From positions 1 to 35,427 of the IMG/VR virus record IMGVR_UViG_3300030406_002135: a stretch of DNA of 35,427 bases; one strand, written 5' to 3'. The position numbers were made by a program, and so were the translations under genes. Source of the DNA: a virus. The notes under the pieces were generated by a model. That model was not told where the DNA came from. It did not search any database and saw nothing but the letters and a program-made list of their open reading frames with translations. How positions within the stretch are numbered: position 1 is the first letter of the stretch; each line of letters begins with the position of its first letter. Shown in pieces: positions 4,027 to 32,000 of the stretch.

Positions 4027-4374
4027 ATGGCGTTTAAAATGAAGGGTCCTTCTCTGTACCCAAACTATAGAGGTAAAAAAGAGAAAATGATAGTTATTAA
4101 TCATGAGGGTCCAGCTGGCGCTGCAGATGGTAGAGCGTCTTCATCACCATTTCAAAGAAAGACTGGTGCTAAAACTAAAGAGCAATTATTGAAAGAAGGT
4201 TTTACTCCACGTGATGCTGATCAAATGATTAAAGATGGCGCTGTTACAGGTGTTGTTGATAACAAGAAAAAGAAGAAAAAGAAGAAAAAGAAGAAAGACA
4301 TGCCTGTTAAACCAAAACCAGGTGACTATAAAAAATACAGCGATTTAGAAAAGTATGACGATGATCGTGGTTAA
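4027..4374 (+). CDS. Lysine-rich FKMKG-tagged protein 2 with poly-Lys tract
   Basis: 115 residues. It begins MAFKMKGPSLYPNYRGKK, carrying the shared tag, and has SSPFQRK at 39-45 (compare SSPFK in the upstream protein). Residues 46-75 form a small domain with GFTPRDADQMIKDGAV, which could be a helix-turn-helix-like or ribosomal-type basic helix. Residues 80-90 are eleven consecutive lysines, encoded by interleaved AAG and AAA codons. The tail is acidic/basic mixed (YSDLEKYDDDRG). Separate A/T-rich leader of 28 bp. Function unknown; a nucleic-acid-binding internal protein is the simplest guess. Confidence 0.65.
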   Translation: MAFKMKGPSLYPNYRGKKEKMIVINHEGPAGAADGRASSSPFQRKTGAKTKEQLLKEGFTPRDADQMIKDGAVTGVVDNKKKKKKKKKKKDMPVKPKPGDYKKYSDLEKYDDDRG

Positions 4375-4414: not shown

Positions 4415-4969
4415 ATGCCAAACTTTAAAGGAAAAAGCGGCGGAGGCCCTTTTAAAATGAAAATGAAATCCTATGGACAGGGTAAAAACCCTATACAAAT
4501 GAGCCACGGTAAATCACCAGCTAAAGGTTTATTCGGTAAAATTGGTGGAGCTATAAAAGGAGCTATCACTGGTAAAGACGGTAAATTCGGTTTAGCTGAC
4601 GCTGGACGTTTAGCTCTTGGTCCTGTTGGATTAGCTATGGGTGCTGCTAGAGGTATGAAAATGACCGAAAAAGCATCTGGTAAATCAGCAATGAAAATGA
4701 AACATGGTAAATCACCAATGAAAGGATATAAATCTGCTGCACAAAGAAAAGCAGTACATGCTAGTAAAGCTGACGGTGGAGCTGGTAATCCTAATAAAAT
4801 GAAAGGTGATTTAAATAAAGACGGTAAAATGTCTGGATATGAAACAGCTAGACAGACTGCTATAGAGAAAAATATGAAAAAATCTCCTAGCAAGATGTAC
4901 GGTAAAAAAACTCCTGCTAAAATGTATGGAAAGAAAACACCTGCCAAAATGTACGGCAAAAAGAAATAG
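4415..4969 (+). CDS. Lysine-rich protein with EF-hand loop and S/T-P-x-K repeats
   Basis: 184 residues. It carries GPFKMKMK (11-18), KSPAK (33-37), KSPMK (99-103), KSPSK (156-160) and two KTPAK copies. Residues 37-80 are a Gly/Ala-rich helical stretch (LFGKIGGAIKGAITG; LGPVGLAMGAARG). Residues 132-143 (DLNKDGKMSGYE) match the 12-residue EF-hand calcium loop at all key positions (D1, N3, D5, G6, S9, E12). The C-terminus (157-183) is three near-identical 9-residue repeats of the type TPAKMYGKK. No enzyme motif. The mix suggests a structural, DNA-binding or calcium-responsive virion component; this is inferred from motifs only. Confidence 0.65.
   Translation: MPNFKGKSGGGPFKMKMKSYGQGKNPIQMSHGKSPAKGLFGKIGGAIKGAITGKDGKFGLADAGRLALGPVGLAMGAARGMKMTEKASGKSAMKMKHGKSPMKGYKSAAQRKAVHASKADGGAGNPNKMKGDLNKDGKMSGYETARQTAIEKNMKKSPSKMYGKKTPAKMYGKKTPAKMYGKKK
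4883..4963 (+). repeat. 27-bp coding tandem repeat, three copies
   Basis: Three consecutive 27-bp units at the 3' end of the gene encode SPSKMYGKK, TPAKMYGKK and TPAKMYGKK. The units differ at synonymous positions (GGT/GGA/GGC, AAG/AAA), so the peptide repeat is more conserved than the DNA. This fits either selection for the peptide or an old duplication. Confidence 0.7.
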
Positions 4970-5013: not shown

Positions 5014-5310
5014 ATGACTTATTTATACTACAAGACCAGCACAATGACAGCTGGCAACCAAAAACCGAGTAAAGAAACTGTTGAGCAATGGAAACATTTA
5101 TCTACAAAAAGTAATTGGAGAATAACTCAATTGCCTAACGGGTTTTACCAAACAGAGTGTTTACAACTAAACCAAGATGATGTTTGGGTAGATGTAACAC
5201 GAAGAGAGACCATAGATGGTGCTGAAGCTGCCATTGACGGCAGCATCGAGCACTTCCAAAAGAAATTGGAAGCGGCAAGTGGTCCGAAAGTCGTAAAGAC
5301 TTTTAAATAG
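5014..5310 (+). CDS. Conserved-looking hypothetical protein upstream of groEL
   Basis: 98 residues, not unusually basic, unlike its left neighbours. The core (residues 33-80) looks like a compact alpha/beta fold: NWRITQLPNGFYQTECLQL, then DDVWVDVTRRETIDGAEAAIDGSIEHFQKKL. A second ATG at 5044 (MTAGNQKPSKE) could be the true start. Base composition is less A/T-rich than the flanks; a perfect GCTGCC/GGCAGC inverted repeat occurs inside at about 5227-5244. It precedes groEL by 32 bp of (ATTAA)n leader. No function can be assigned. Confidence 0.6.
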   Translation: MTYLYYKTSTMTAGNQKPSKETVEQWKHLSTKSNWRITQLPNGFYQTECLQLNQDDVWVDVTRRETIDGAEAAIDGSIEHFQKKLEAASGPKVVKTFK

Positions 5311-5342: not shown

Positions 5343-6914
5343 ATGAATTACAATTTGCCTAGCGAAATTGTCAAAGATCTTAACTTTGGTAATGAAGCTA
5401 AAAATAAAATCAAGGCTGGTGTTGATAAACTAGCTGAAGCAGTAAAATCAACCTTAGGAGCATCTGGTAAATGCGTTATATTTGAAGACGCACGTGGAGT
5501 TCCGGTCATAACAAAAGACGGTGTAACCGTTGCGGAAAACGTAGTCTTATTTGACCCGGTTGAAAACATGGGTGCAACACTTATAAAAGAAGCTGCTAAA
5601 AATACAGTGAACGAAGCAGGTGACGGTACTACTACAGCTACTGTCCTTGCTCAATCACTTTTAAATAAGGTCTATGATTCTATAGATCAAAACACATCAA
5701 TAAGAGAAATAAAAGACGGAATAAATAAATGTCTTATAAAGATAAATAAATATCTAAATAAGTCTGCTGTCAAGATCGAAGGCGATATGCTGAAATCTGT
5801 TAGTTCAATAAGCTGTAATAATGATGAAGAACTAGGAAAGATTATAGCAGAGGCTTATGAAACTGTTGGAAAAGACGGTGTTGTGTTGATGGAGTCTTCA
5901 GAAACAAATGAAACTTATATAGATGTAGTTGATGGCGTTAAAATAGAATGTCCTCTTACCTCTACACATTTTGTTACTAATACTGAAAAACACAGATCTG
6001 AATTAGAAAACCCTTTAGTATTAATTGTATCTAGTGAAATTCCGAACATAAGAAGAATACAATCAGTATTAGAGTACGTTATTAAAAAAGGTAGGCCGTT
6101 ACTATTAGTAGCTCCAGTAGATCAACAAGTTAGAACAGCTTTAGCAATGAATAAAGTAAAAGGTAATATCAAAATAAATATAATTGATTTACCAGGCTTT
6201 GGTCCTACTAAAAAAGATGCTACTGAAGATTTAGCTATATTAACAGGCGCAACAGTAATAAACGAAGAACTTGGAGACGATTTAGATATTATAACAGAAC
6301 AATACCTTGGTGAGGCTGACTTTTCAGTAACTGATAGTAAAACCACTGTTATAAAGTTAACAGATGAAATTAACCCTGATATTGAAGAAAGAATAAAAGA
6401 AGTAAAAAAGAAAATTAAAAGCGAGAAAAACGGTTATATAAAGAAAAAGTTAGAAGAAAGACTAGCTATGTTATCTTGTTCTGTTGGTATTATAAAAGTA
6501 GGTGCTGATTCTAAAGTAGAATTAAAAGAAAAGAAAGATAGAGTAGAAGATGCTATATTTGCTACAAAAGCTGCTTTACAAGAAGGTATAGTGCCAGGTG
6601 GTGGTGTAGCCTTGTTAAACGCAGCAGAAAGAGTATCATCTAAAAGTAAAGGTGAAAAAATACTATTAGATGCTATTAGAGCGCCGTACAAAACAATATT
6701 AGATAATGCTGGTATTAATCAAGGTCAAGAACTAACAGAAGGTTACGGTATTAATGTTGTAACTAATAAAGAAGTTGATATGATTAGTGCTGGTATTGTA
6801 GATCCAGTACTTGTTACTAAGTCTGCGCTTAAAAACGCTGTTAGTGTAGTATCTACTATTATTTCTGCTGATTGTGTAATTTCAAATGTAAGAGCCGATG
6901 AAAGCAGTAAATGA
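5343..6914 (+). CDS. groEL: GroEL-type chaperonin (phage-encoded)
   Basis: 523 residues, a little shorter than bacterial GroEL (about 545). The ATP-binding signature GDGTTTATVLAQ is at 93-104, and the catalytic aspartates have counterparts: D59 in ITKDG, D94 in GDG and D403 in RVEDA. PGGGVALL is at 418-425. TLGASGK replaces the usual TLGPKG near residue 37. The apical domain spans roughly 198-375; around the expected Tyr-199/Tyr-203/Phe-204 sites it reads LTSTHF. The C-terminal Gly-Gly-Met tail is absent (ends RADESSK) and a few residues are missing before the VDPVLVTKSAL segment. It assembles as a double ring and folds proteins in the cytoplasm with GroES. The groES start overlaps its last 17 bp. 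Capsid or tail proteins are the probable clients. Confidence 0.95.
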   Translation: MNYNLPSEIVKDLNFGNEAKNKIKAGVDKLAEAVKSTLGASGKCVIFEDARGVPVITKDGVTVAENVVLFDPVENMGATLIKEAAKNTVNEAGDGTTTATVLAQSLLNKVYDSIDQNTSIREIKDGINKCLIKINKYLNKSAVKIEGDMLKSVSSISCNNDEELGKIIAEAYETVGKDGVVLMESSETNETYIDVVDGVKIECPLTSTHFVTNTEKHRSELENPLVLIVSSEIPNIRRIQSVLEYVIKKGRPLLLVAPVDQQVRTALAMNKVKGNIKINIIDLPGFGPTKKDATEDLAILTGATVINEELGDDLDIITEQYLGEADFSVTDSKTTVIKLTDEINPDIEERIKEVKKKIKSEKNGYIKKKLEERLAMLSCSVGIIKVGADSKVELKEKKDRVEDAIFATKAALQEGIVPGGGVALLNAAERVSSKSKGEKILLDAIRAPYKTILDNAGINQGQELTEGYGINVVTNKEVDMISAGIVDPVLVTKSALKNAVSVVSTIISADCVISNVRADESSK

Positions 6915-7155
6915 TTTTATACTAATAAAAAAAGAAAAGTTAGGTCCTAAAAAAGTAGGAGGTTTAATACTAACAGAAGAAGTTGATGAAGCTAATAGAT
7001 ATGTAAAAGCAATAATAATATCAGTTGGTAATTTAGTTGAAGGCTTGAAAGAAAACGATGTTATATATTACGACAGGGCTGGTGCAAAGAAAGTTGATTG
7101 CGATGGAACTGTAAATTATATAATAAAAGCTAGAGATGTTGTTCTAGTTCAATGA
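6898..7155 (+). CDS. groES: GroES-type co-chaperonin
   Basis: 85 residues against about 97 in E. coli. It starts MKAVNDFILIKKEK, as in GroES, and the mobile-loop anchor GGLIL (21-25) corresponds to GGIVL, which docks on GroEL. After VGN (43-45) the sequence jumps to VEGLKENDVIYY, so about nine residues that form the roof beta-hairpin in E. coli GroES are missing. The C-terminal strand KARDVVLVQ matches the ESDILAIVE end. It caps the GroEL ring. It overlaps groEL by 17 bp in another frame and its TGA overlaps the next ATG, so the three genes are translationally coupled. Confidence 0.9.
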   Translation: MKAVNDFILIKKEKLGPKKVGGLILTEEVDEANRYVKAIIISVGNLVEGLKENDVIYYDRAGAKKVDCDGTVNYIIKARDVVLVQ

Positions 7156-7592
7156 GAATAACAGCTCAACATCTAAGAGATATTAATCTTTTTAAATACT
7201 ACAGATTAGTAAGAAAATGGGCTTGTAAAACTTACAACATAACCGACGCTGATCTGGAGTTATTAATATACCTCGATTGTAAAGGAAGATTTACCCGACA
7301 AGACTTTATAAACGGAGTATACACAATGAGTTGGGATAAGAACAGATGGGAGAAACTTAGAAGAAATGATTGGATAGAAGTTTGGCGACATCGAAACCGA
7401 ACTACCATAAAATACTCAGTATTTAAAACTTCTTTTAAGTGCTCTCAACTCATTAGTAGAATATACAGGATATTATTAGGAGAAGAAGATTTACCTACTT
7501 CAGAAAGAAGTAAATTTTTTAATAACAAATCATATACAGATAAAGTTTATAATAAAGCTATTGATGATATGATAAAAGATAAAGATCGATAA
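7152..7592 (+). CDS. Winged-helix (MarR-like) DNA-binding protein, putative
   Basis: 146 residues. Residues 10-60 read as helices: LFKYYRLVRKWACKTYNITDADLELLIYL, then GRFTRQDF, the order found in MarR-type winged-helix proteins (dimer helix, then LTxxxLxLLxxL, then recognition helix). WEKLRRNDWIEVWRHRNRTTIKYSVF (66-91) would be the second helix and the wing. The C-terminal part (95-146) is helical and charged. It overlaps groES by ATGA and the next start by TAATG. It could regulate the late operon or bind DNA during packaging. Assignment rests on pattern, not on an alignment. Confidence 0.55.
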   Translation: MRITAQHLRDINLFKYYRLVRKWACKTYNITDADLELLIYLDCKGRFTRQDFINGVYTMSWDKNRWEKLRRNDWIEVWRHRNRTTIKYSVFKTSFKCSQLISRIYRILLGEEDLPTSERSKFFNNKSYTDKVYNKAIDDMIKDKDR

Positions 7593-7945
7593 TGGCATTT
7601 AAACTAGGAAAAGAAAAACGAGGTTTTAAAAATTCTAAAAACGTTATAATCAGGAAAAAACTTGATGAAGGTGTTTTAGGTGAAGCCAATAAAGATGGTA
7701 GTATATTTATTAGTAATAGTGTTAAAAAAGGTAGTCCATTAGAAAAAGAAGTTATAAAGCACGAGAAAAAACATGCTGATGACATGGCTGCTGGTAAATT
7801 AGATTATGGGGATAATTACGTTAGATATAACGGTAAAACATATCCTAGAAAAGATGGTAAAATAAAATACAATGGTAATTGGATGGAAGAAGGTTCTAAA
7901 TCATTTCCATGGGAAAAAGCCGCATATAAAAAACAAAAACAATAA
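7592..7945 (+). CDS. Putative HExxH zinc metallopeptidase-like protein, lysine-rich
   Basis: 117 residues. HEKKH at 57-61 sits in a helix (LEKEVIKHEKKHADDM), matching the zincin HExxH signature. PWEKAAY at 106-112 provides a plausible third ligand (E108), a spacing seen in small phage and bacterial HExxH proteins. The N-terminus MAFKLGKEKRGFKN resembles the M-x-F-K-M-K-G tag of its neighbours, and GSPLEK (47-52) recalls their SP motif. Middle segments are beta-like (YVRYNGKTYPRKDGKIKYNG). If active it could process virion proteins; no head-maturation protease is otherwise visible in the window. Catalysis is unproven. Confidence 0.55.
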   Translation: MAFKLGKEKRGFKNSKNVIIRKKLDEGVLGEANKDGSIFISNSVKKGSPLEKEVIKHEKKHADDMAAGKLDYGDNYVRYNGKTYPRKDGKIKYNGNWMEEGSKSFPWEKAAYKKQKQ

Positions 7946-7947
7946 TT

Positions 7948-8283
7948 ATGGGATATAAAATGAAGGGTATTAAAGACTTTGGTGAAGGTACACCATTGTT
8001 TAATAAAAAAGGTAAAAAAAAGACTATTGCTGGTGAAAACACAGATGTTTTAAAAAGAGATAGTAAAGGTAAAAGTTATACTCAAGCTATGGATGCTACA
8101 GTTAGTGGTATAACACCAAAAGATACTATATTTGTACCTGATTATAAAATACCTACAGTATACGGTTATGTAGAAGGTGGTGACTATGATCTTGAAGAAA
8201 CAGAAGGTAGCAAGAAAAGAAAAAAAGGCCAACCAAAGTCTTATACTATGAAAAATCAAAAACCTATAACAGATAGAGATTAA
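7948..8283 (+). CDS. Lysine-rich FKMKG-tagged protein 3
   Basis: 111 residues. It begins MGYKMKGIKDFGEGTPLFNK, carrying the shared tag with Tyr in place of Phe. The rest is hydrophilic: a basic stretch (KKGKKKT), a DTIFVPDYKIPTVYGYVEGGDY segment (residues 61-82) and a Lys-rich tail (SKKRKKGQPKSYTMKNQ). No enzyme motif or membrane segment. It sits 2 bp after the HExxH gene and 1 bp before the holin, so late expression is likely. Function unknown. Confidence 0.6.
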   Translation: MGYKMKGIKDFGEGTPLFNKKGKKKTIAGENTDVLKRDSKGKSYTQAMDATVSGITPKDTIFVPDYKIPTVYGYVEGGDYDLEETEGSKKRKKGQPKSYTMKNQKPITDRD

Positions 8284-9086: not shown

Positions 9087-10388
9087 ATGGGCTTCACTAC
9101 AGGAATGATAAGTGGAGCCGAAGCAGGAACTCCACATTACTATATTGAAAGCGGAGGTAATCAATGGGATGCTCATACTTGGGTAAATTTTCATTTTGAT
9201 AGTAGTGGATCTATGAACGATATTATAACACCGTTAACAAACGCTATGACTGGCGCTTATTTTTCTAGTGGTAGTGCAGCTGGACAAGATGGTGTAAAGT
9301 CTACAGTGTCATTAAGAGCTGAGTTACAAGATTTATACGCTACTGGTGGTATTGAAGGTGCTCCTGATTATAACACTGACAACAGCACAAACGGTAAAAA
9401 CGCTTACAATGCTCACGTTAATCATAGAAATATAAACGATGAAAGATGGTTAACTTGGAGTGGTAGTCATTTTGTAGGTGGTAGTTCTCAAAGTTGGAAT
9501 AATTTAGGGAACAACAATACAGTAAATAATATTATACAAGTTTTTGTTATAAACGAAAGTAAAGGTGGTTATCCTAATAACCGTAGAGGTGGTGGTTATT
9601 ATTCTACACCTTGGGGAGAACCATTTACAGGTACTTTAACAAAAACAGTACAAGCTACAACTTCAAATAGCACAACTGTCGTTTTAGATACTATTACAGG
9701 TTTAGTTAAAGAAAGTGATAACAATGATGGCGTAGTTTCAGAGCCTTTTGCTGAGCACATGAAATTAACAGCTGTTAGTGCTGGTAGTTTATCTGGCACA
9801 CCAACTATAACTAATATATCTAGTAATACTGTAACATTAAGTAGTGCTCAAAGTTTTGCTGCAGGTACACAATTAACATTTTCTATGACTTCTTTTGGTT
9901 TTAATTCAACAAATGGAAGTTTTCACTATAGTAGTCCTGATGATCACTCTACTTATGCAACAGATATAGTTGGAGCAAGAAATACTTTAGGTTTAGGAAG
10001 TGGTATAAAAGATATATTAACAAACTCAGGACAAAAACCATCTATAACATATATAATAATAGATGCTGGTAGTGGAACTACAACTAGAGTTTCAGCTTTA
10101 AATAACGTTGGTAATGGGGTTGTAGGTAATGCGCATAATGGTCCTGGTGGATTAAACGCATCACAACGACACGTACAAGAAGGTGTAATAGAAGGTAAAT
10201 TAACTTTTCACGCTACAAGAACAGATGGTAATAATAGAAGTTTAAATGATTTTGCAAATATAACTTCTTGGAACGATAAATCAAATATGTTGCATTTAGT
10301 AGCATTAACAAACAAATCAAGCGAAACAAGTCAAGCTTACTGGAAAGACCAATTAAGAGCTGCGCTGCAATTAAACGTATCATTTTAA
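9087..10388 (+). CDS. Virion adhesin with vWA-like MIDAS motif
   Basis: 433 residues. TWVNFHFDSSGSMNDIITPL (31-50) is the first strand and helix of a von Willebrand A domain: D38, S40 and S42 match the D-x-S-x-S metal site. A later hydrophobic strand NIIQVFVINES (148-158) fits a vWA strand, but its acidic ligand is not clearly placed. Residues about 178-270 look like an inserted beta-sandwich (TVTLSSAQSFAAGTQLTFS). Residues 285-433 return to alpha/beta pattern (ITYIIIDAG; MLHLVALTN). vWA domains bind proteins or surfaces through a divalent metal, so a receptor-binding tail protein is likely. In the middle of the fibre cluster. Confidence 0.6.
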   Translation: MGFTTGMISGAEAGTPHYYIESGGNQWDAHTWVNFHFDSSGSMNDIITPLTNAMTGAYFSSGSAAGQDGVKSTVSLRAELQDLYATGGIEGAPDYNTDNSTNGKNAYNAHVNHRNINDERWLTWSGSHFVGGSSQSWNNLGNNNTVNNIIQVFVINESKGGYPNNRRGGGYYSTPWGEPFTGTLTKTVQATTSNSTTVVLDTITGLVKESDNNDGVVSEPFAEHMKLTAVSAGSLSGTPTITNISSNTVTLSSAQSFAAGTQLTFSMTSFGFNSTNGSFHYSSPDDHSTYATDIVGARNTLGLGSGIKDILTNSGQKPSITYIIIDAGSGTTTRVSALNNVGNGVVGNAHNGPGGLNASQRHVQEGVIEGKLTFHATRTDGNNRSLNDFANITSWNDKSNMLHLVALTNKSSETSQAYWKDQLRAALQLNVSF

Positions 10389-12956: not shown

Positions 12957-13388
12957 ATGAAGTTTTTAAACGATTTAAATGTAAGTAGTGCAACAGATTC
13001 ATCTGAAGCTGAAGGTACCAGTGGGGCAATAAGAACCACTGGTGGCGCCAGCATTGCTAAAAAGTTGTACGTTGGCTCTACGATAACTGGTACTGCAGAT
13101 GTAATAGCATATTCTGATAAAAGATTAAAAGAAAATGTTAAAACATTAGACGGTAAAAAAGTATTAGAGATGAGAGGTGTTAGTTTTGATCGTGTAGATA
13201 CAGGTAAAGCTAGCTCTGGTGTTATAGCTCAAGAAATAGAAAAAGTTGCTCCAGAGTTAGTTATAGACGACGGTGAATTTAAAGGAGTTGCTTATGGTAA
13301 CTTAGTAGGTTATTTAATTGAAGCTATTAAAGATCAACAAAAACAAATTAATGAATTAAAATACATTTTACATGGCCGTCCCGAGTAG
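12957..13388 (+). CDS. Fibre stub with S74 intramolecular chaperone domain
   Basis: 143 residues. It starts MKFLNDLNVSS, like the preceding fibre. Residues 13-50 are a short fibre-like segment (AIRTTGGASIAKKLYVGSTI). From SDKRLKENV (53-61) the sequence matches the Peptidase S74 chaperone of endosialidase-type fibres: S53 and K58 are the expected dyad for self-cleavage before the serine, and SSGVIAQEIEKVAPELV and VGYLIEAIKDQQKQI follow. In other phages this domain trimerises the fibre and is then released. Here the fibre part is only about 52 residues, so it may act in trans on the neighbouring fibre or be a short fibre in its own right. The next gene overlaps its last 17 bp. Confidence 0.8.
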   Translation: MKFLNDLNVSSATDSSEAEGTSGAIRTTGGASIAKKLYVGSTITGTADVIAYSDKRLKENVKTLDGKKVLEMRGVSFDRVDTGKASSGVIAQEIEKVAPELVIDDGEFKGVAYGNLVGYLIEAIKDQQKQINELKYILHGRPE

Positions 13389-15012: not shown

Positions 15013-15214
15013 AATATCTATAGGTAAAGATTATAAAAATGACGCCATGCACTATGCCGTTGGGCAAGAAGTGTATGGTGGTCATAAAATATGTGATATA
15101 TTAGAAGAAGAAGAAAAATTTTCTATATATATTAAAAAAGCAAATCAAGTTATACCTTGGAAAGATTTTAATAAAAACATGGCAATATCTGTCGAGTATA
15201 ACTTAGAATACTGA
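14993..15214 (+). CDS. Small conserved-looking hypothetical protein
   Basis: 73 residues from ATG 14993 (MDKLIRKISIGKDYKNDAMH). A TTG two codons earlier is a weaker alternative start. The sequence shows a compact beta-rich domain: HYAVGQEVYGGHKICDILEE, then KFSIYIKKANQVIPWKDFNK. No enzyme motif. It overlaps the coiled-coil gene by 20 bp and the following ATG by TGATG, so it is translationally coupled to both. Probable accessory packaging or virion protein; function unknown. Confidence 0.55.
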   Translation: MDKLIRKISIGKDYKNDAMHYAVGQEVYGGHKICDILEEEEKFSIYIKKANQVIPWKDFNKNMAISVEYNLEY

Positions 15215-15801
15215 TGAGAAGCGTATATGGTTTTGTTATAAAACCAATAGGAGAAAGATATAATAACACTAAAAAAGTTGGTGATAAAGAATTAATAGTT
15301 AACACTGAAGTTTTTAATCATCAATATGTAAATAGAAAAGCAAAAGTTATATCTACTCCAATTATTGGTAATACAGAAATAGAAGTAAATGACGATATTA
15401 TTGTTCATCACAATGTTTTTAGAAGATGGCACGATCAATACGGTAATGAAAGAAACAGTGGTAATTATTTTAATGAAGACACTTATATTGTTTATATAGA
15501 TCAAATATTTGCATATAAAAGACATTGGAGATGGAAACCATTAAAAGGATATAATTTTATACAACCACTAAAACAAACAAACCCTTTATATAACGAAAAA
15601 GAAAAGTTAAAAGGCATAGTTAAATATACTGATGGCTGTGTGAAAGAAGGTGATATTGTTGGTTTTTTACCAATAGACAAATATGAGTTTGTTATTGACG
15701 GTGAAAGAGTATATAGAGTTAAATCTAATTCAATTACAATTAAATATGAAAATAAAAGAAACGAAGAAGCTTATAATCCAAGCTGGGCACAGAGCAGTTG
15801 A
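15214..15801 (+). CDS. Two-domain GroES-like protein
   Basis: 195 residues. Domain 1 (about 1-102) follows GroES order: GFVIKPIGERYNN, a loop with KVGDKELIVNTEV (21-33), then KAKVISTPI and VNDDIIVHHNVF, and a closing YIVYIDQIFAYK. Domain 2 (about 110-178) repeats it: YNFIQPLK, LKGIVKYTD, KEGDIVGFLPIDKYEFVIDG, then ERVYRVKSNSITIKYE, close to GroES GDIVIF ... DGEEVLIM ... DILAI. Neither domain has a clear GGIVL anchor, so docking on GroEL is uncertain. The tail ends NPSWAQSS. It lies just upstream of the terminase genes. It could be a capsid-folding co-chaperonin or a virion protein that adopted the fold; the assignment is by pattern. Confidence 0.55.
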   Translation: MRSVYGFVIKPIGERYNNTKKVGDKELIVNTEVFNHQYVNRKAKVISTPIIGNTEIEVNDDIIVHHNVFRRWHDQYGNERNSGNYFNEDTYIVYIDQIFAYKRHWRWKPLKGYNFIQPLKQTNPLYNEKEKLKGIVKYTDGCVKEGDIVGFLPIDKYEFVIDGERVYRVKSNSITIKYENKRNEEAYNPSWAQSS

Positions 15802-20625: not shown

Positions 20626-21795
20626 ATGGAAGAAAACAAAGAAGTAGTTGAAGAAACTACACAACAACCTGTGGAAGAAACCACTGAACAAAAACAAGAA
20701 GAATCACATATATCTTTTAACGAAGAAGGTGATATAAAAGTAGATTTAAACAAGTTTAACGAATTAAACCAAAATCAAGATGCCGTTTCAGAGTCACAAA
20801 CAGAGGAGGTTCCTGTACGCAACGAATCCGAAGCTAGCGAAGGAGTTCAGCAAGAAAACGTCGAAGCAACAAATGAAGAACCTACCGGAGAGCAAGAGCA
20901 AGCCGTTCAAAATGAAGAACCAGAAGCTGTTGAAAATGCTCAAGAAGAACAGGTAGAAGAAGAATACGTTGACTTACCAGAAAATATTCAAAAGTTAATG
21001 GACTTTATGGAAGAAACTGGTGGTGATCTACAAGATTATGTAAGACTAAATACAGATGTTAAAGATTTAGATGACTCTGAAGTTTTACATGATTATTACA
21101 AAAGAACAAAACCTCATTTGAATAATGAAGAAATTAATTTTCTACTAGAAGATAGATTTTCATACGATGAAGAAGAAGACGATCAAAAAGAGGTAAAAAG
21201 AAAAAAACTAGCCTTAAAAGAGCAAGTTGCTGAGGCAAGGTCCTACTTAGACGGGCAAAAGTCTAAATACTATGAAGACATCAAAGCTGGTTCAAAGCTC
21301 ACGAGTGAGCAACAGAAAGCAATTGAGTTCTTTAATAGATACAATCAAGATGAAGAGCAGAACATGAAAATTGTAAAGCATCAACAGGAAACTTTTTACG
21401 ATAAAACAAACCAAGTTTTTAATAAAGATTTTAAAGGGTTTGAATTTAACGTTGGCGACCAAAAAATGACTTATAATATTCAGAATGTTGACGATGTGAA
21501 AAACACGCAAATAGATATAAATAATTTCGTAGGAAAGTTTCTTCACGAAGGTTTAATGTCAGATGCTGCGGGTTACCACAAAGGATTATTCACTGCTATG
21601 AATCCTGATGCAATAGCAAAACATTTCTATGAACAAGGCAAATCAGATGCTATAAAGCAATCTGTTGCCGATTCCAAGAACATTAACACGTCTAGAGAAT
21701 CTCATAAAGTTTATGAAGGTGAAGGAGGCATAAAAATTAGGGTTTTAGGTGATGATTCAAATGATATGAAGCTACGTATTAAAAAACGAAACTAA
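20626..21795 (+). CDS. Scaffold-like head assembly protein
   Basis: 389 residues. Residues 1-125 are extremely acidic and Gln-rich (MEENKEVVEETTQQPVEETT; QEEQVEEEYVDL). The middle contains ENIQKLMDFMEETGGDLQDY and a charged coiled coil (about 180-260). The C-terminus is basic (IKIRVLGDDSNDMKLRIKKRN), and a basic helical or extended tail is how many scaffolds contact the capsid. The position between portal and major capsid protein strongly supports scaffold. Its DNA is less A/T-rich in the first 400 bp. No protease motif is visible. Confidence 0.75.
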   Translation: MEENKEVVEETTQQPVEETTEQKQEESHISFNEEGDIKVDLNKFNELNQNQDAVSESQTEEVPVRNESEASEGVQQENVEATNEEPTGEQEQAVQNEEPEAVENAQEEQVEEEYVDLPENIQKLMDFMEETGGDLQDYVRLNTDVKDLDDSEVLHDYYKRTKPHLNNEEINFLLEDRFSYDEEEDDQKEVKRKKLALKEQVAEARSYLDGQKSKYYEDIKAGSKLTSEQQKAIEFFNRYNQDEEQNMKIVKHQQETFYDKTNQVFNKDFKGFEFNVGDQKMTYNIQNVDDVKNTQIDINNFVGKFLHEGLMSDAAGYHKGLFTAMNPDAIAKHFYEQGKSDAIKQSVADSKNINTSRESHKVYEGEGGIKIRVLGDDSNDMKLRIKKRN

Positions 21796-21819: not shown

Positions 21820-23292
21820 ATGGCATTAGCACAAACCGTTCCCGCAGCAGGTTATACTCCTGCTCCGATGAAACAATTGCTTGCAACTAACTATATTGAC
21901 TTTACCGCTGGAGGTACTGGTCAAACAAATGGTTGGGCGCAACAATACCTACCAGATCTTATGGAGAAAGAAGCTGAGGTTTTTGGAAACAGAACTATCT
22001 CAGGTTTCTTATCGCAAGTAGGAGCTGAAGAATCTATGACTTCAGACCAAGTAATTTGGTCAGAGCAAGGTAGATTACATTTAGCATACAAAACTGTTAC
22101 TGGAGCAAATGATTCAGGTGAATTAAAACTGACTTTCGATGGTAACACAACTGATGCTGATGGAAATGCAGTACCAAACACAGGTAAAGACCACGGTATA
22201 CGTCCTGGTGATATGTTACTTGTGTCTGACGCAAACGTAACTGTAAATGTATTTGTACAAAGCGTAAACGCTACTGCAGGTACTATACAATGTGAAAGAT
22301 ATGATGGTAACGCTGATGGTGCTGCTGGATTATCTGGAGCATTAACTGTCCTAGTTTATGGATCTGAATATGTTAAAGGATCTATAGGTAGAGCTGGAGC
22401 TAACAAGCCACAGCACTTATCTAGAACTAACAAGCCAATCATTTTAAAAGATAAATATGAAGTATCAGGTTCTGATGCATCTGCTATCGGTTGGGTTGAA
22501 ATTTCTGGTGAAGAAGGACAAAATGGTTACCTATGGTACTTAAAAGCTTCTGGTGACACTAAAGCACGTTTCTCTGATTACTTAGAAATGGCAATGATGG
22601 AATCTGTAACTGCAGGTGCTAACATGGCTGCTTCTACTGTAACTAATGCAACTGGTGCAATTGGTGGAACTGAAGGTTTATTTGAAGCACTTTCAACAAG
22701 AGGTAACATATCTAACGCTTTAGATGGAGCAACTGCAACAGATGCTTTAGCTGAGTTTGATGACATATTAAAAGAGCTTGACGCTAACGGCGCGATCGAA
22801 GAAAATATGTTATTTGTAAACAGAGATGTTGCTCTTTCTATAGATGATATGTTAGCTGCTCAAAACTCTTACGGTACTAACGGTACATCTTTTGGTGTAT
22901 TTAACAATGCTGAAGACATGGCGTTAAACTTAGGTTTTTCAGGATTTAGAAGAGGTTCTTATGACTTCTACAAGTCTGACTTTAAATACCTAAACGATGC
23001 TGGTACAAGAGGTTTGATAAACGCAACTGACGGTACTAACAAGATTACTGGTGTATTAGTTCCTGCTGGTGTATCTTCTGTGTATGACCAATCTTTAGGT
23101 AGAAACTTAAAGAGACCATTCTTACACGTAAGATTCAGAGCTTCTAATATGGAAAGCAGAAAGTACAAAACTTGGACTACTGGTTCAGTTGGTGCTACTA
23201 CTTCTGATTTAGATGCGATGGAAATGCACTTCTTATCTGAAAGATGTTTAGTTGTTCAAGGTGCAAATAACTTTGTATTATTGAAAGGATAA
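21820..23292 (+). CDS. Major capsid protein
   Basis: 490 residues, in the canonical place after the scaffold and followed by a strong terminator. The sequence has the character of an HK97-fold capsid protein: GWAQQYLPDLMEKEAEVFGN (residues 40-59) in the N-terminal arm, a long helix region around 245-275 (FSDYLEMAMMESVTAGANMA), LFVNRDVALSIDDMLAAQ (about 328-345) and a C-terminal LDAMEMHFLSERCLVVQGAN. An insertion-like beta segment (about 100-190) could be an extra domain. The A/T leader TTTAAAATGG precedes the start. Main shell protein and likely client of the phage GroEL/GroES. Confidence 0.85.
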   Translation: MALAQTVPAAGYTPAPMKQLLATNYIDFTAGGTGQTNGWAQQYLPDLMEKEAEVFGNRTISGFLSQVGAEESMTSDQVIWSEQGRLHLAYKTVTGANDSGELKLTFDGNTTDADGNAVPNTGKDHGIRPGDMLLVSDANVTVNVFVQSVNATAGTIQCERYDGNADGAAGLSGALTVLVYGSEYVKGSIGRAGANKPQHLSRTNKPIILKDKYEVSGSDASAIGWVEISGEEGQNGYLWYLKASGDTKARFSDYLEMAMMESVTAGANMAASTVTNATGAIGGTEGLFEALSTRGNISNALDGATATDALAEFDDILKELDANGAIEENMLFVNRDVALSIDDMLAAQNSYGTNGTSFGVFNNAEDMALNLGFSGFRRGSYDFYKSDFKYLNDAGTRGLINATDGTNKITGVLVPAGVSSVYDQSLGRNLKRPFLHVRFRASNMESRKYKTWTTGSVGATTSDLDAMEMHFLSERCLVVQGANNFVLLKG

Positions 23293-26046: not shown

Positions 26047-29000
26047 ATGGCTGAATTAAAAAGGAATTTTTCTGGCGGTAAAATGAACAAGGACATGGAC
26101 GAAAGAGTCCTAGAACCTGGTCAATATCGTGATGCTAGAAACGTACAACTAGCAACATCTGATGGTTCTAATGTTGGATCACTGCAAACTTTATTAGGTA
26201 ACACTAAAGTTTCAGGCGCTAACACTGTAAACGATGATTACTCTTCTTGTGTTGGAGTTTTACCTGTTCCTGAAAAAGATTTAATATATTATTTTATCGC
26301 TGGTGGTGGTACAAAAAACTTTGTACCATTAAAAAAAGTAGATTATATAATAGAATACGATGTAAATACAAAAACAACTAAGTATGTCTTTGTAGATTTA
26401 TACTCTGTTACACACACTATAGCTGCTGATCAAGCTGGTGGTTTGTTTTTTGATATTACAACAAGTGCTAATCATAATGATTTAGGTATTAGACCTGGTA
26501 TGATATTAAGCGGTACTTTAAATGATCCAAACGGATCTGGAGTAAACGCTGTTGGTCAATCTTTAAATTTTGGTGTTGAGGTTACAAACATACAGTTTTC
26601 AGGTATGACAGGTAATCAAAGAACATATAGAATATATCATAGTGGTAGTAGTGGATTACTTGCTTATGGTAATCCTTTTTACGCTACTGCTGGTGATGTT
26701 GTAACATTTACAGCTCCTAGGGTTTTAGAGTTTCAACACCACAGAATGATTACAGCTATAAACCATTTAGATGGTATGATATTTTGGACTGATAATTATA
26801 ACGAGCCTAAAAAAATACATATAGAAAGATCTAAGTTAGGTACTTGTGGTACTTTACCTTTAGGTGGACATATAGATGGAAACTTGTGGACAGCACAAGC
26901 AGCAAACGTAAACAATGTACCACAACCTATATCTCAAAACAACAATTCTTTTCACACTAGGTTGTTAAGAAAAAGAGAAAAGGTAGCAAATGCTTTTGAA
27001 GTTTGTTTGGATAGAGAAGAAAGTCAACCTATATTTGTTGAAAAAGCTGATATTACTGTTTTAAAAAGAGCTCCTTTATCACCTTTAGATGTTGAGATGT
27101 CAACAACTGAAAGTTATAGAACAGATGGCACAACAGAAAATACAATTTTTTCTACATCTGTAGGTTCAGGAAATACTATGATAGACTTGGGTGATGGTAG
27201 TGGTGTTAACGCAGAGCACTTAGAAGTTGGAGATCAAATAGATTTTGATGTTTTAACGCCTGTAGATTATAGAGTTGGAGATACAATAATGTTAACTAGT
27301 AACTTAAATTTAGCACCAGATAATTTTCCTTTAGATCAAGTTGAAGCTAGAATAACAATAATTACTAGTCCTGTAGTGGTTATTCAGGGTAATGCTACAC
27401 CTTCAACAGGTACTTTTACAGCAACTATACAATCAATAGATATTGATGCACCAACTTTACCTGCTCAATTTTTAACTAGGTTAGAACAGCCAAAACCTAT
27501 GTTTGAATATAAATTTCCTAGATTTTCATATAGATATAAGTATACAGATGGTGAATATTCTACTTTTGCACCGTTTTCTGAAATAGCTTTTTTACCTGGT
27601 GATTTTGATTATTTACCTAAAAAAGGTTATAACCTAGGTATGACAAATAGAGTTAGGCATATAAGATTAAAAAACTATTTTAATGAGTTTGATTTAGTAC
27701 CAGATGACATTTGTGAAGTAGATTTACTATATAAAGAAACGCAATCAAAAACAGTTTATTCTGTAAAAACAATAAAAAGAGGTGATGATGGTTGGCCAGA
27801 TATGAAAGCTGATCCTTCAGCTAGAGGTTGTTTTGATCTTGATACAGAATTAATACACGCCACAATACCGTCTAATCAATTATTAAGGCCTTATGATAAT
27901 GTTCCTAAATGTGCCAAAGCTCAAGAGATAACAGCTAATAGATTAGTTTATGGTAACTATAAACAAAACTATACAATATCTAAAAGTTTACAACTTAATG
28001 TTCAACATGCTGCATACAAAATAACTGATAGTGGTATAACTGATTATGAGATACCTTTACAGTCTTTAAAGTCTATGAGAACATACCAACTTGGTGTTGT
28101 TTGGTTAGATGGTCTTGGTAGAGAAACACCTGTCATGGTTCCAGAAACAGGTGGCTCGATAACAGTAGATAAAAAAGACGCTGATAAACAAAATAGAATA
28201 AAAGTTAAAATATTAGAAAAATCAAACGGAGGTTTTGACCCACCTCCTTGGGCTAGATATTTAAAATATTATATTAAAGAAACTTCTAATGAATATTACA
28301 ACATGGCTATGGATCGTTTTTACGATGCTGAAGATGGTAATGTTTGGATTAGTTTTCCATCGGCTGAAAGAAATAAAGTAGATGAAAGTAGTTATTTAAT
28401 ATTAAAGAAACAACATAATAGTAACACACCTGTTAAAGAAACAGCAAGATATAAAGTTATAGCTATAAGTAATGAGGCTCCTTTATTTATTAAAAGAGAA
28501 AGAAACTCTTTTGGTATGCAAACTGTAGAGTTTGAATCAGCTGGAACGCCAGAGCCAGATAGAACTTTTGTTATAATAGATTTAACTGACTTTAATCAAT
28601 TTTTTAGATCTTTTACAGAACCTGTAATAAAAGACAATGTACAGGTGAGATTTGGTGGTATTAGTGGTGCTCAAGCTTTTACTAGTGATGTTTACGAAGT
28701 TAACGGTATAAATGTTTCAACTACTGGTGGCACTGTTAGACTTATTCTTGACAGACCATTAGGTGATGATGTTCAAGAAATATCTCAGTTGAGCAGAACT
28801 ACTCAAATGAGACTAGAATTATTTGAAAATAAATTTGAAAATAAACCAGAGTTTGATGGTAGATTTTTTGTTAAAATATTAAAAGACTTAACGTTACAAG
28901 AAGAGTTATTATCAGGTTTTTCATTAAATTTAAGATACAGAGTTGTAGATACTTTTAACCTTGGTTATATAAATGCTTATAAAGGTAGAGGTAAAACTTG

Positions 29001-32000
29001 GTATAGACAGTGGAGAGATTATCATGATGGCCCAGGTCCAAACGGTCATCAAACAGTAGAGTCTAGGTGGGTAATAGACGATCAAGACTCTGGTCCAGAT
29101 GGAACTGAGAATACAATACAAACAAGAAACCTTAATAAAGGTGGTATTTATAACGCTATAGATCGTTTACCAAATATGAATCCTTTGTTTGGACAAAGCC
29201 CAATGGATTCTGGTGGTAATACTGGTAATGGTTATATAGACTTATCTTATATTAATTTTGTTAAAGACGATCCAAGAAGCCAAAACACTAGATACTCAGC
29301 TGTTTGGGATAGAATAAGAATGCCTGGTTGTCATTTTAGATTTAAACAAGATCCAGCTCAAGTTGTATTTAGAGTTGAAGGTGTACAAGGTAGGTTGTGG
29401 GAAAATTATCAAAGTGGTGATTTTTGTAGACTTTGGAAAAACACTAGATATTCTGATTCAACAAACTCATGGTCTAGCGAAAATGGTAGAACTGGTACTT
29501 TAATTGGATCAAGTGGAGATGCTGCTTGGAACTATGAAGATGATGAAGATCTTTTATCTGCTAACAGATGGAGCGCAAGAATTAAAGTTGACAAAATGTT
29601 TGGTGGTGGTAGTAATCATGTTTTTGACTCTAGCAGACATGCTCCTATGCAAATAGCAGATCCAAATAACGTTTCGCCTGGCAACCCTAATGGTATGAGA
29701 ATGATTCAAGATGGAGAAAGATATGATGGTGCTATTGTTGGCGGTACTTTTACTATAGTAGATAGAGCTGGTAACTCTCATACAAACACTTACCCTGTAG
29801 GATATAATCATAACTGGTACCCTATAACTAGTGATACTGGTGCACAATTAAACACAGCAAACCAACTTGAAGCTGCTACTGTTTTTAATAACAACGGAAA
29901 TAGTGAGTTTAGTGCGCAAAGTTGGGGTGCTAGCCCAATACTTTTTCACGGAAATACTAATACTGGTAATTACTCTAGTTTCTTTTCAAACCCAGACCCA
30001 GACAATAATCCTGCAGATGGAACTGGTGGTAAGCCAGATTTTAAAGCTCCTACTAGTGTAGGATTAGGAGGTTATAGCCGTAGAAATGATCACACATGTA
30101 TAGTTGAATTTTTAGAGCCTGAAATTGTTACTGAATCTGAAGATGGTCCTAATGCTTTTTCAAGTACAAACCCTGCTATATGGGAAACAGAGCCTAAAGA
30201 AGATATTGGTCTTGATATTTATTACGAAGCTTCTGGTGCTATACCTATAAATCCAGATCATACAGAAGATGAGTTATTAATACCTATTGGCTCTACCTTT
30301 AAACATAATGGAACTACACATACTGTAACAGCTATTGAGCCTTATGACCCAGCTCGTGTTGGTGTATCTAAAATAACAATAACACCTGCGTTGACAGCTG
30401 TTTTCCCACATTATCATTATGCTTATTTTGAAAGATATGATAATTCTAAAATATGTTTAATGTCAAACTTTCCTAGTGGCACACCTGCTGCAATTGGTAC
30501 AACCGTAATGCACTTTATAACAGGTGATAATTCAACAGATCTTGGTAGTTTTATAAGTAGAGCTGATGCAGCACCACACCATAATCCAACTGTTTTAGGT
30601 TGGTTTAACTGCTACTCTTTTGGTAATGGTGTTGAATCAGATAGAATACGTGATGATTTTAATGCAAAAAGAATAGATAATGGTGTAAAAGCTTCTACAA
30701 CTTTAGACGAGCCTTATGCTGAAGAGCATAGAAAAAATGGATTTATATGGTCTGGTATATATAACTCTACAAGTGGTGTTAATAATCTTAATCAATTTAT
30801 ACAAGCAGAGCCAATAACTAAAGATCTAAATCCTGACCACGGTAGTATACAAAAAATGGTAACTAGAGATACTAATACTCTAGCTTTTTGTGAAGATAAA
30901 GTTTTAAAAATACTAACAAATAAAGACGCTTTATTTAATGCTGATGGTAATTCTAACGTAACGTCTACTAACAATGTTTTAGGCCAAGCTGTTCCACTTC
31001 CTGGTGAATATGGCATATCTACATATCCAGAGTCTTTAACATCAGACCCAGATGGTTTTTATTGGGCAGATGTTCAAAGAGGTAATGTATTAACATTAAG
31101 AGGAGATCAAATAGTTTCTATATCTGACATGGGTATGAAAGATTATTTTAATGATAATTTAAGAGACTTAGCTTCTGTAATAGGTAGTTATGATGAAAAG
31201 AAAAAAGAATATAATATATCTTTAAAAAAGAAAAGCGACGCTTCTCAGTTTAGGTTTACCGGTACAACTTTGTCATTTAGTCAATTAACAAGTGGTTGGG
31301 TTAGTTTTAAAGATTATTTACCAGAAGCTGGTTTAAGTATAAACAACGAGTATTACACGTTTAGACATGGTAGTTTATGGCAGCATCACACAAATGAAAC
31401 AAGAAATAATTTTTACGGAACTCAATATACTTCTGACGTTACATTAATATTTAACGATGCACCTGGTTCTGTTAAGAGTTTTGGTAGTATAAATTATGAA
31501 GGTACTGCGGCTGCTGTAACAACTTTTACTACAGAAAGCGTTACTAACGCTGCTGGTACAACAGCTAATTATACCGATGGTCAATATTATACATTATTTG
31601 CTAAAACAGGTTGGTATATTGAAGATATAACTACAAATTTACAAGATACAGGTTTGTTGGAGTTTAAAAACAAAGAAGGTAAATACTTCAGTACAATAAG
31701 AGGTAAAACAACAGAATTATCTAACTTAGATGAAAGAGAGTTTTCTGTACAAGGATTAGGCTTTATTGATTCAATTGGTACATCTGGTCAACCACCTGGC
31801 GTAACTTATAAAATATATATTCAAGGTACACATTCAAATGATGGTGGTAACGGTCCAGCGTCTTCAAACCACAGCTCTTGGGATTCAACACCAGACGATC
31901 CTAATTGGAGAGTTTTATTTAAGCAACCATTAAACGGTGTTGCAGGAGCTACAATTGCTGCTGGTTCTAGAGAAAGTTATATAACAAACGAACAAAGTTT

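Follow-up and report, generated by a model that had tools for sequence, protein, structure and literature searches.

The groEL-groES locus and its neighbors

The window, the whole 35.4-kb stretch of an IMG/VR virus record from an uncultured virus, carries on its plus strand a groEL (Cpn60) gene at positions 5343..6914 (523 amino acids, 56 kDa), followed by a groES (Cpn10) gene at 6898..7155 (85 amino acids, 9.4 kDa). The GroEL product matched the Pfam family Cpn60_TCP1 (PF00118; E = 2.9e-55 over 30-515) and the PHROG family 'chaperonin groEL' (E = 3.1e-138), is 40% identical to E. coli GroEL, and gave an AlphaFold model of moderate confidence (mean pLDDT 77.6) that aligned with GroEL 1mnf over 504 residues (Z = 37.8). 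GroES was likewise recognized by Pfam (Cpn10, PF00166; E = 7.4e-9) and PHROG ('co-chaperonin GroES', E = 2.1e-10), and its AlphaFold model resembled Cpn10 1wnr (Z = 10.7), GroES 1aon (10.4), and gp31 1g31 (9.1).

As proposed in the original prediction, groES starts 17 bp inside groEL in a different frame, an overlap that was read directly from the sequence (6898..6914, plus strand) and that is kept in relatives. Specifically, groEL was followed by an overlapping groES in all 80 of the closest IMG/VR relatives (the best 80 of at least 569), with overlaps of 14 bp at 64 loci, 17 bp at 13, 1 bp at 2, and 4 bp at 1; a chance overlap is thereby ruled out. Overlaps of 1 to 17 bp are common between other adjacent genes in the window. 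The overlap per se is ordinary, and its constancy across relatives is not. The earlier inference that the tight overlap keeps stoichiometry is thus unsupported, as the stoichiometry of the GroEL and GroES rings would be set by assembly.

Immediately downstream is a 146-amino-acid open reading frame (ORF) of unassigned function (7152..7592, plus strand) that matches PHROG 17028 (unknown function; E = 2.7e-6), and a homologue adjoins the pair of phage elemo (E = 9e-12). Its ATGA overlap with groES, as noted in the original prediction, is present in the window and is not general among relatives: the ORF occurs in 76 of the 80 relatives, usually not directly adjacent to groES, with a 4-bp overlap in 10 of the 76 and an 8- or 17-bp overlap in 5, while nearly all others start hundreds of bases on. 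Upstream, a 98-amino-acid ORF, also of unassigned function and with no Pfam match (5014..5310, plus strand), is conserved just 5' of groEL, being found on the same strand in 73 of the 75 IMG/VR relatives with room for it, at a median gap of about 35 bp. This ORF was considered as a shared third component and rejected, as no homologue lies beside GroEL in the loci of other phages.

The pair is thus flanked in the window by these two ORFs, a holin-like gene (next in 54 of 76 relatives), and appendage-type genes. The terL (16024), portal (18242), and probable major capsid (21820) genes lie 9 to 15 kb downstream, which is at odds with the earlier description of the pair as beside capsid-type genes. 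The suggestion of a very large tail protein was reasonable, as a 2591-amino-acid ORF contains crAssphage muzzle-protein domains (E = 1.9e-14). The probable major capsid protein (21820..23292, plus strand; 490 amino acids, 52 kDa), a candidate client of the chaperonin, is so designated because of its assignment to PHROG 13704 (virion structural protein), its synteny, and its likeness to phi38:1 gp093 (34% identity, E = 3e-91), which we take, from a renumbering of genes, to be the 'putative major capsid protein gp067' of PMC13288928. A sequence search of the capsid candidate against solved structures returned no match.

An ORF at 15214-15801, just upstream of terL, was evaluated as a second GroES-like gene, being homologous to elemo gp30, which is annotated 'co-chaperonin GroES' (E = 2.5e-22). 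It was rejected for want of a convincing Cpn10 match: among 26 members of its family, one matched Cpn10 at E = 0.02, and a profile comparison with the GroES family gave a probability of 1.2%.

Distribution and descent of the phage pair

Relatives of the window GroEL were found in at least 569 IMG/VR stretches. The 80 relatives used throughout were selected for their likeness to the window, and one branch may be over-represented among them. A GroEL-independent sample was assembled from ten contigs picked by their terminase, each with no less than 6 kb of sequence ahead of terL. Nine of these carried groEL, and none was found in the 10 kb upstream of terL in the tenth, which is not a sure absence because the distance between groEL and terL varies from about 2 to 16 kb among these contigs. 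Among named phages, both genes were present in ctfjg026, elemo, Panino, phi38:1, Calle, DAC19, immuto, and Va1. A Pfam profile search detected Cpn10 in 8 of 9 named phage records, the exception being phi14:2, which has groEL without a Cpn10 match; in two of the records, Va1 among them, Cpn10 is a remote gene rather than a neighbor of groEL. A tblastn search of the named phages with the window GroES alone gave no match at E<=0.1, and a consensus of the majority-type GroES, typed from the alignment, matched ctfjg026 and gave weak partial matches.

A complete pair had been expected to be uncommon in phages. Both genes are present in all 80 of the nearest contigs and in at least 8 named phage records, and that expectation does not hold. 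Overall, groEL and groES belong to the usual (core) gene set of a large, uncultured marine podovirus-like lineage whose nearest named relatives are ctfjg026, Elemovirus, Panino, and Callevirus; the window terminase shares 62% identity with its counterpart in ctfjg026 (MW202828) and 45% with the one in Elemovirus. From these relatives, the hosts are presumed to be Bacteroidota-type bacteria. GroEL in genomes of marine Flavobacteriaceae phages (PMC5332604), both genes in Panino (PMC11590407), and the presence of both GroEL and GroES in some phages (PMC7185714) have been reported, and Marine et al. 2017, as far as accessible via PMC9611531, described chaperonin genes in viral metagenomes and linked gene order to GroEL phylogeny. 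That phages carry such pairs, and that their gene order is linked to GroEL phylogeny, has therefore been published before; what looks new is the residue-level anatomy of the chaperonin.

In a 36-row tree, the window GroEL and its relatives formed one clade with 100/100 support, and this clade together with five other Bacteroidota-phage GroELs fell outside all sampled cellular sequences (100/99), a placement also seen in a quick larger tree. Because branches are long, the exact order of those five (ctfjg026, elemo, Panino, phi38:1, and phi14:2) is unsure. Two other phage GroELs have different placements: that of DAC19 nests in Bacteroidales and that of Va1 groups with gammaproteobacteria, and on this tree they are separate captures. 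Gene order also distinguishes the lineages. Wherever a partner gene was detected at a bacterial locus (76 loci), groES comes first; in ctfjg026, elemo, Panino, and the window lineage, groEL does. Across the 80 phage pairs, GroEL and GroES distances were correlated (Mantel r = 0.68, with 0 of 999 permutations as high), consistent with joint inheritance of the two genes.

These data bear directly on the idea that the genes are a recent capture from a host and have no phage-specific role. The nearest cellular GroELs are those of Bacteroidota, the presumed hosts, and joining all these phages to Bacteroidota as a whole was not rejected (p-AU 0.178), so an old Bacteroidota origin is possible on the sequence evidence. 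Against a recent event, GroEL identity is 69-78% within the phage clade and at most 43% to any bacterial GroEL, gene order is reversed relative to bacteria, and a union of the fully supported clade with Flavobacteriaceae GroEL was rejected (p-AU 0.0004). The phylogeny that the original prediction had named as pointing to such a capture, both genes inside one host lineage with no other phage copies, was not what we recovered, as phage copies are abundant. We conclude from the trees, the AU test, and the identities that the separation from host GroEL is ancient and that recent host capture can be rejected as very improbable.

Residue-level anatomy of GroEL and GroES

Residue positions in GroEL are given in E. 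coli numbering. The ATP-site residues T30, G32, K51, D52, D87-T91, D398, G414, G415, and D495 are invariant in the window and in all 80 relatives. In its full-length Cpn60 fold and sequence and its residues for ATP binding and hydrolysis, the protein agrees with the group I chaperonins. Sites of intra-ring contact are conserved above the average in phages. The D83-K327 charge pair is reversed to K/R-D/E in 60 of 80 relatives, a pattern suggestive of selection to maintain this contact. The GGM tail is absent from all phage GroELs compared.

The staggered 1:2 contacts that join the two heptameric rings of a typical group I chaperonin present a different picture, with the residues that make them lost or unconserved. 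The region of E. coli helix Q (~461-470) is mostly deleted, leaving a remnant at 6714..6737 (plus strand); 78 or more of the 80 relatives lack E434 and residues 465-470, and the GroEL model predicts no helix between residues 456 and 488. Positions R452, E461, S463, and V464, which are the sites changed in the single-ring mutant SR1 (PMC9138447), are nearly fixed in 79 bacterial relatives and have no consensus in phages, where K105, A108, and A109 are also unconserved. Taken together, the eight inter-ring sites (105, 108, 109, 434, 452, 461, 463, and 464) have a mean entropy of 2.75 in phages versus 0.73 in bacteria. Apart from the deleted E434, each of the sites ranks among the most variable 4% (7 of 8), and in 20,000 random draws of sites no set reached the same variability. 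In bacteria, the variability of these sites is average. The result was repeated in substance with two other alignments. Human mitochondrial Hsp60 has neither the K105-D435 nor the R452-E461 pair and occurs mostly as single rings (PMC5575113). Since the ring-ring contacts are lost or unconserved, we infer that the phage GroEL is somewhat more likely to be a single ring than a double one.

The main alternative is an ordinary, fast-evolving double-ring GroEL/GroES whose interface has moved to other residues and whose role is to raise chaperone dosage during infection. The fold and length are otherwise GroEL-like (the model with Z = 37.8 noted above), phage genes evolve fast, and the chaperonin of phage EL makes a double ring through a different interface; loss of the E. 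coli-type contacts is in itself compatible with a double ring held by new ones. Change in the phage protein is not uniform, however: at the ATP and intra-ring sites, conservation equals or exceeds that in bacteria, and the ring-ring sites, the cage acids, and the GroES roof have shifted in a fixed direction in 79 to 80 of the 80 relatives. Moreover, had a new interface become fixed, conserved residues would be expected in the patch, and it is among the most variable parts of the protein. We therefore regard this alternative as unlikely, and favor the single ring.

The cage wall is altered at two patches. In the first (6114..6122, plus strand), corresponding to the E252/D253/E255 region of E. 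coli GroEL, the acidic cluster is lost: E252-E255 is replaced by P-x-D in the window, and D253 is deleted in all 80 relatives. In the second (6432..6446, plus strand), D359, D361, and E363 have become G364, I366, and K368 of the window protein. These six E. coli residues, which we take from GroEL mutagenesis to line the cage, carry a net charge of -6 in 76 of 79 bacterial GroELs and of 0 or +1 in 79 of 80 phage proteins. The phage subunit as a whole is the more acidic (median net charge -23 versus -14 in bacteria), so the loss of cage acids is local. On the substrate-binding face, F204 and L237 are kept, and the changes Y199L, Y203H, L234Q, L259K, and V264M are found, the window itself having R at 259. 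In E. coli GroEL, several such apical changes (L234Q, L259K) would be expected to lower the affinity for substrate as well as for GroES, which counts against the mechanism proposed below.

GroES has the Cpn10 beta-barrel and a mobile loop with a hydrophobic tripeptide, the features of a GroES/Cpn10 protein. The mobile-loop segment (6931..7008, plus strand) comprises 26 residues and keeps GGLIL; this length is shared by most phage relatives, compared with 24 residues in E. coli and most bacterial relatives. In light of the intact loop and the invariant ATP site, the proposal of a complete, phage-owned GroEL/GroES pair is upheld. SR1-like single rings trap GroES unless its affinity is tuned (PMC5575113), and the hydrophobic loop retained in GGLIL is a counterpoint to a single ring in this respect.

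The roof hairpin of GroES is lost. The corresponding segment, NLVEGLKE (7030..7053, plus strand), has 8 residues in the window and in 79 of 80 relatives (9 in the remaining one), versus 10-18 in 76 bacterial GroES sequences and 17 in E. coli. Absence of the roof loop is the mark of a gp31-type co-chaperonin, and the 8-residue segment is shorter still than that of gp31 (10 residues). The groES gene is always paired with groEL (80 of 80) and co-varies with it, and the phage GroEL very probably partners the phage GroES and not that of the host.

Proposed function and comparison with known systems

Directed changes at these sites, alongside an untouched ATP engine and intra-ring contacts, argue for a rebuilt machine and not a decaying copy or a recent capture. 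Our preferred reading, which we consider probable, is of a phage-dedicated and likely single-ring chaperonin with an open-roofed lid that folds virion proteins. Unfolded phage proteins would bind the altered apical face, and ATP and the phage GroES would then close a cage whose wall is without the usual acidic cluster. Since GroES lacks roof loops, the dome would have a hole and an over-long chain could stick out of it, as has been suggested for T4 gp31. With the ring-ring contacts lost, the ring would probably work alone, release being achieved by a tuned affinity for GroES and not by a second ring.

On balance, we favor virion proteins as the clients, for example the 52-kDa capsid protein or the large tail proteins. 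The missing roof loop of GroES, a change shared with T4 gp31, lends weight to the original idea of a folding machine for large virion proteins, with the clients themselves being predicted. The capsid candidate has a net charge of -19, a 45-kDa protein encoded at 20626-21795 of -44, and the 2591-amino-acid protein of -86; a cage wall stripped of its acidic cluster might be well matched to acidic clients of this kind. With respect to size, and as a counterpoint, the 52-kDa capsid candidate fits an ordinary cage.

Alternatively, the pair could act mainly on host or defense functions (proteostasis, moonlighting, or a virion-carried role) and not on virion folding. In phi38:1, a distant relative with the pair, phage GroEL was detected in infected cells, and its peptides in free virions (PMC13288928), and the pair in the window adjoins a holin-like gene and not the head genes. 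GroEL in virion preparations may be contamination, however; the roofless lid has its parallel in T4 gp31, which is known to act in capsid folding; and the lineage with which the pair is associated has very large tail proteins of the muzzle type (2591 amino acids). We consider a primary role in host functions improbable relative to the folding of virion proteins.

More tentatively, and with rather less confidence than in the dedicated machine itself, the lineage may represent a viral chaperonin class of its own, in which a single heptameric ring is obligate, the paired co-chaperonin has no roof, and the cage wall has lost its negative charge. Such a class would be convergent with EL in its ring and with T4 gp31 in its lid, and would serve acidic, oversized virion proteins. 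It has long been debated for GroEL if a second ring, a roof that closes, and a negatively charged wall are required. One abundant lineage appears to drop all three while keeping the ATP engine and the lid, and thus offers variants for testing each feature. The changes also speak to why some phages bring a whole folding machine, as they hint at clients for which the chaperonin of the host is a poor folding aid.

The closest known systems include the virioplankton group I chaperonins of Marine et al. 2017, which in the portions of that work accessible to us are likewise divergent phage GroELs, common in the sea and with an adjacent GroES. The window almost certainly belongs to this set, and those portions contain no anatomy of ring contacts, cage charge, or roof loop. 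The phi38:1-type phages (Callevirus; Group 2 marine Flavobacteriaceae phages of Nishimura et al. 2017, PMC5332604) share related virion genes and a phage GroEL with the window, and phi38:1 also has a Cpn10 gene. They differ in the order cpn10 - ORF - groEL, without overlap, and their GroEL is about 38% identical to that of the window. Phages elemo, ctfjg026, and Panino share the groEL to groES order, with GroELs 36-39% identical to that of the window; the genes overlap by 1 bp in elemo and 44 bp in ctfjg026, and the GroES roof segment has 8, 8, and 11 residues, respectively. In contrast to the window lineage, elemo and ctfjg026 keep residues 465-468.

T4 gp31 resembles the window GroES in its GroES fold, its lost roof loop (10 residues), and its longer mobile loop (PMC6318259). 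It serves the 56-kDa capsid protein of T4; loss of the roof loops widens the cage lid and is proposed to let a large client partly stick out (PMC6318259). Unlike the window phage, which brings its own GroEL, T4 relies on that of the host, and the two co-chaperonin sequences align poorly. The chaperonins of phages EL, OBP, and AR9 are also GroEL-like, and single-ring states are known for them. They are only ~22-25% identical to GroEL and have no co-chaperonin, whereas the window GroEL is 40% identical to the E. coli protein, and groES follows and overlaps groEL in 80 of 80 relatives. In EL, helix Q is replaced and the rings separate and have their own 1:1 interface, while in the window the helix-Q residues are deleted. 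Human mitochondrial Hsp60/Hsp10 and SR1 share with the window the loss of the K105-D435 and R452-E461 ring contacts and changes at the SR1 positions; the phage GroEL additionally lacks helix-Q residues, the cage acids, and the GGM tail. Mitochondrial Hsp60 is counted as a group I chaperonin despite its single rings.

Database records among the GroEL matches

Although listed as an 'Acinetobacter phage', one record (L091, CAKLQH020000021) was found to carry its GroEL gene flanked by pckG, dgkA, and glpQ, and this neighborhood is plainly that of a bacterial chromosome. Bacterial chromosomes listed as phage in this way inflate counts of phage GroEL. The nearest GroELs were mostly from Bacteroidota and included two genome-collection MAGs labeled Rokubacteria (L095) and Streptomyces griseus (L123), whose contigs may be misbinned.

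Lysine-rich and other ORFs of the window

Small, highly lysine-rich ORFs were located at 2001-2408, 4027-4374, 4415-4969, and 7948-8283, as well as at 7592-7945. They share a start resembling M-x-(F/Y)-K-M-K-G, and also have repeats in common, for example SPMK. Conservation of these ORFs across relatives was low, except for the 117-aa ORF at 7592.

A much larger ORF (26047-33822) encodes a protein of 2591 aa, the second half of which contains a crAssphage muzzle domain and a muzzle C-terminal domain. A Peptidase_S74 (endosialidase chaperone) domain is encoded as its own ORF (12957-13388), directly 3' of the gene for a 585-aa appendage-type protein. Near its start, a 433-aa protein (9087-10388) carries DSSGSM, a motif of the DxSxS type seen in von Willebrand A metal sites; a Pfam search of this protein returned no match.

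Comparison with elemo phages

Directly 5' of terL lies a conserved ORF (15214-15801) that was kept in at least 67 of the loci chosen by terminase relatedness. Its homologue in the phage elemo, gp30, is annotated 'co-chaperonin GroES', a label that profiles do not back. In elemo phages (locus L085, 11318-12010), the groEL/groES pair is itself found on the opposite strand, where it adjoins a gene homologous to the 146-aa ORF at 7152-7592 of the window (E=9e-12). The pair has thus retained its neighborhood across an inversion.
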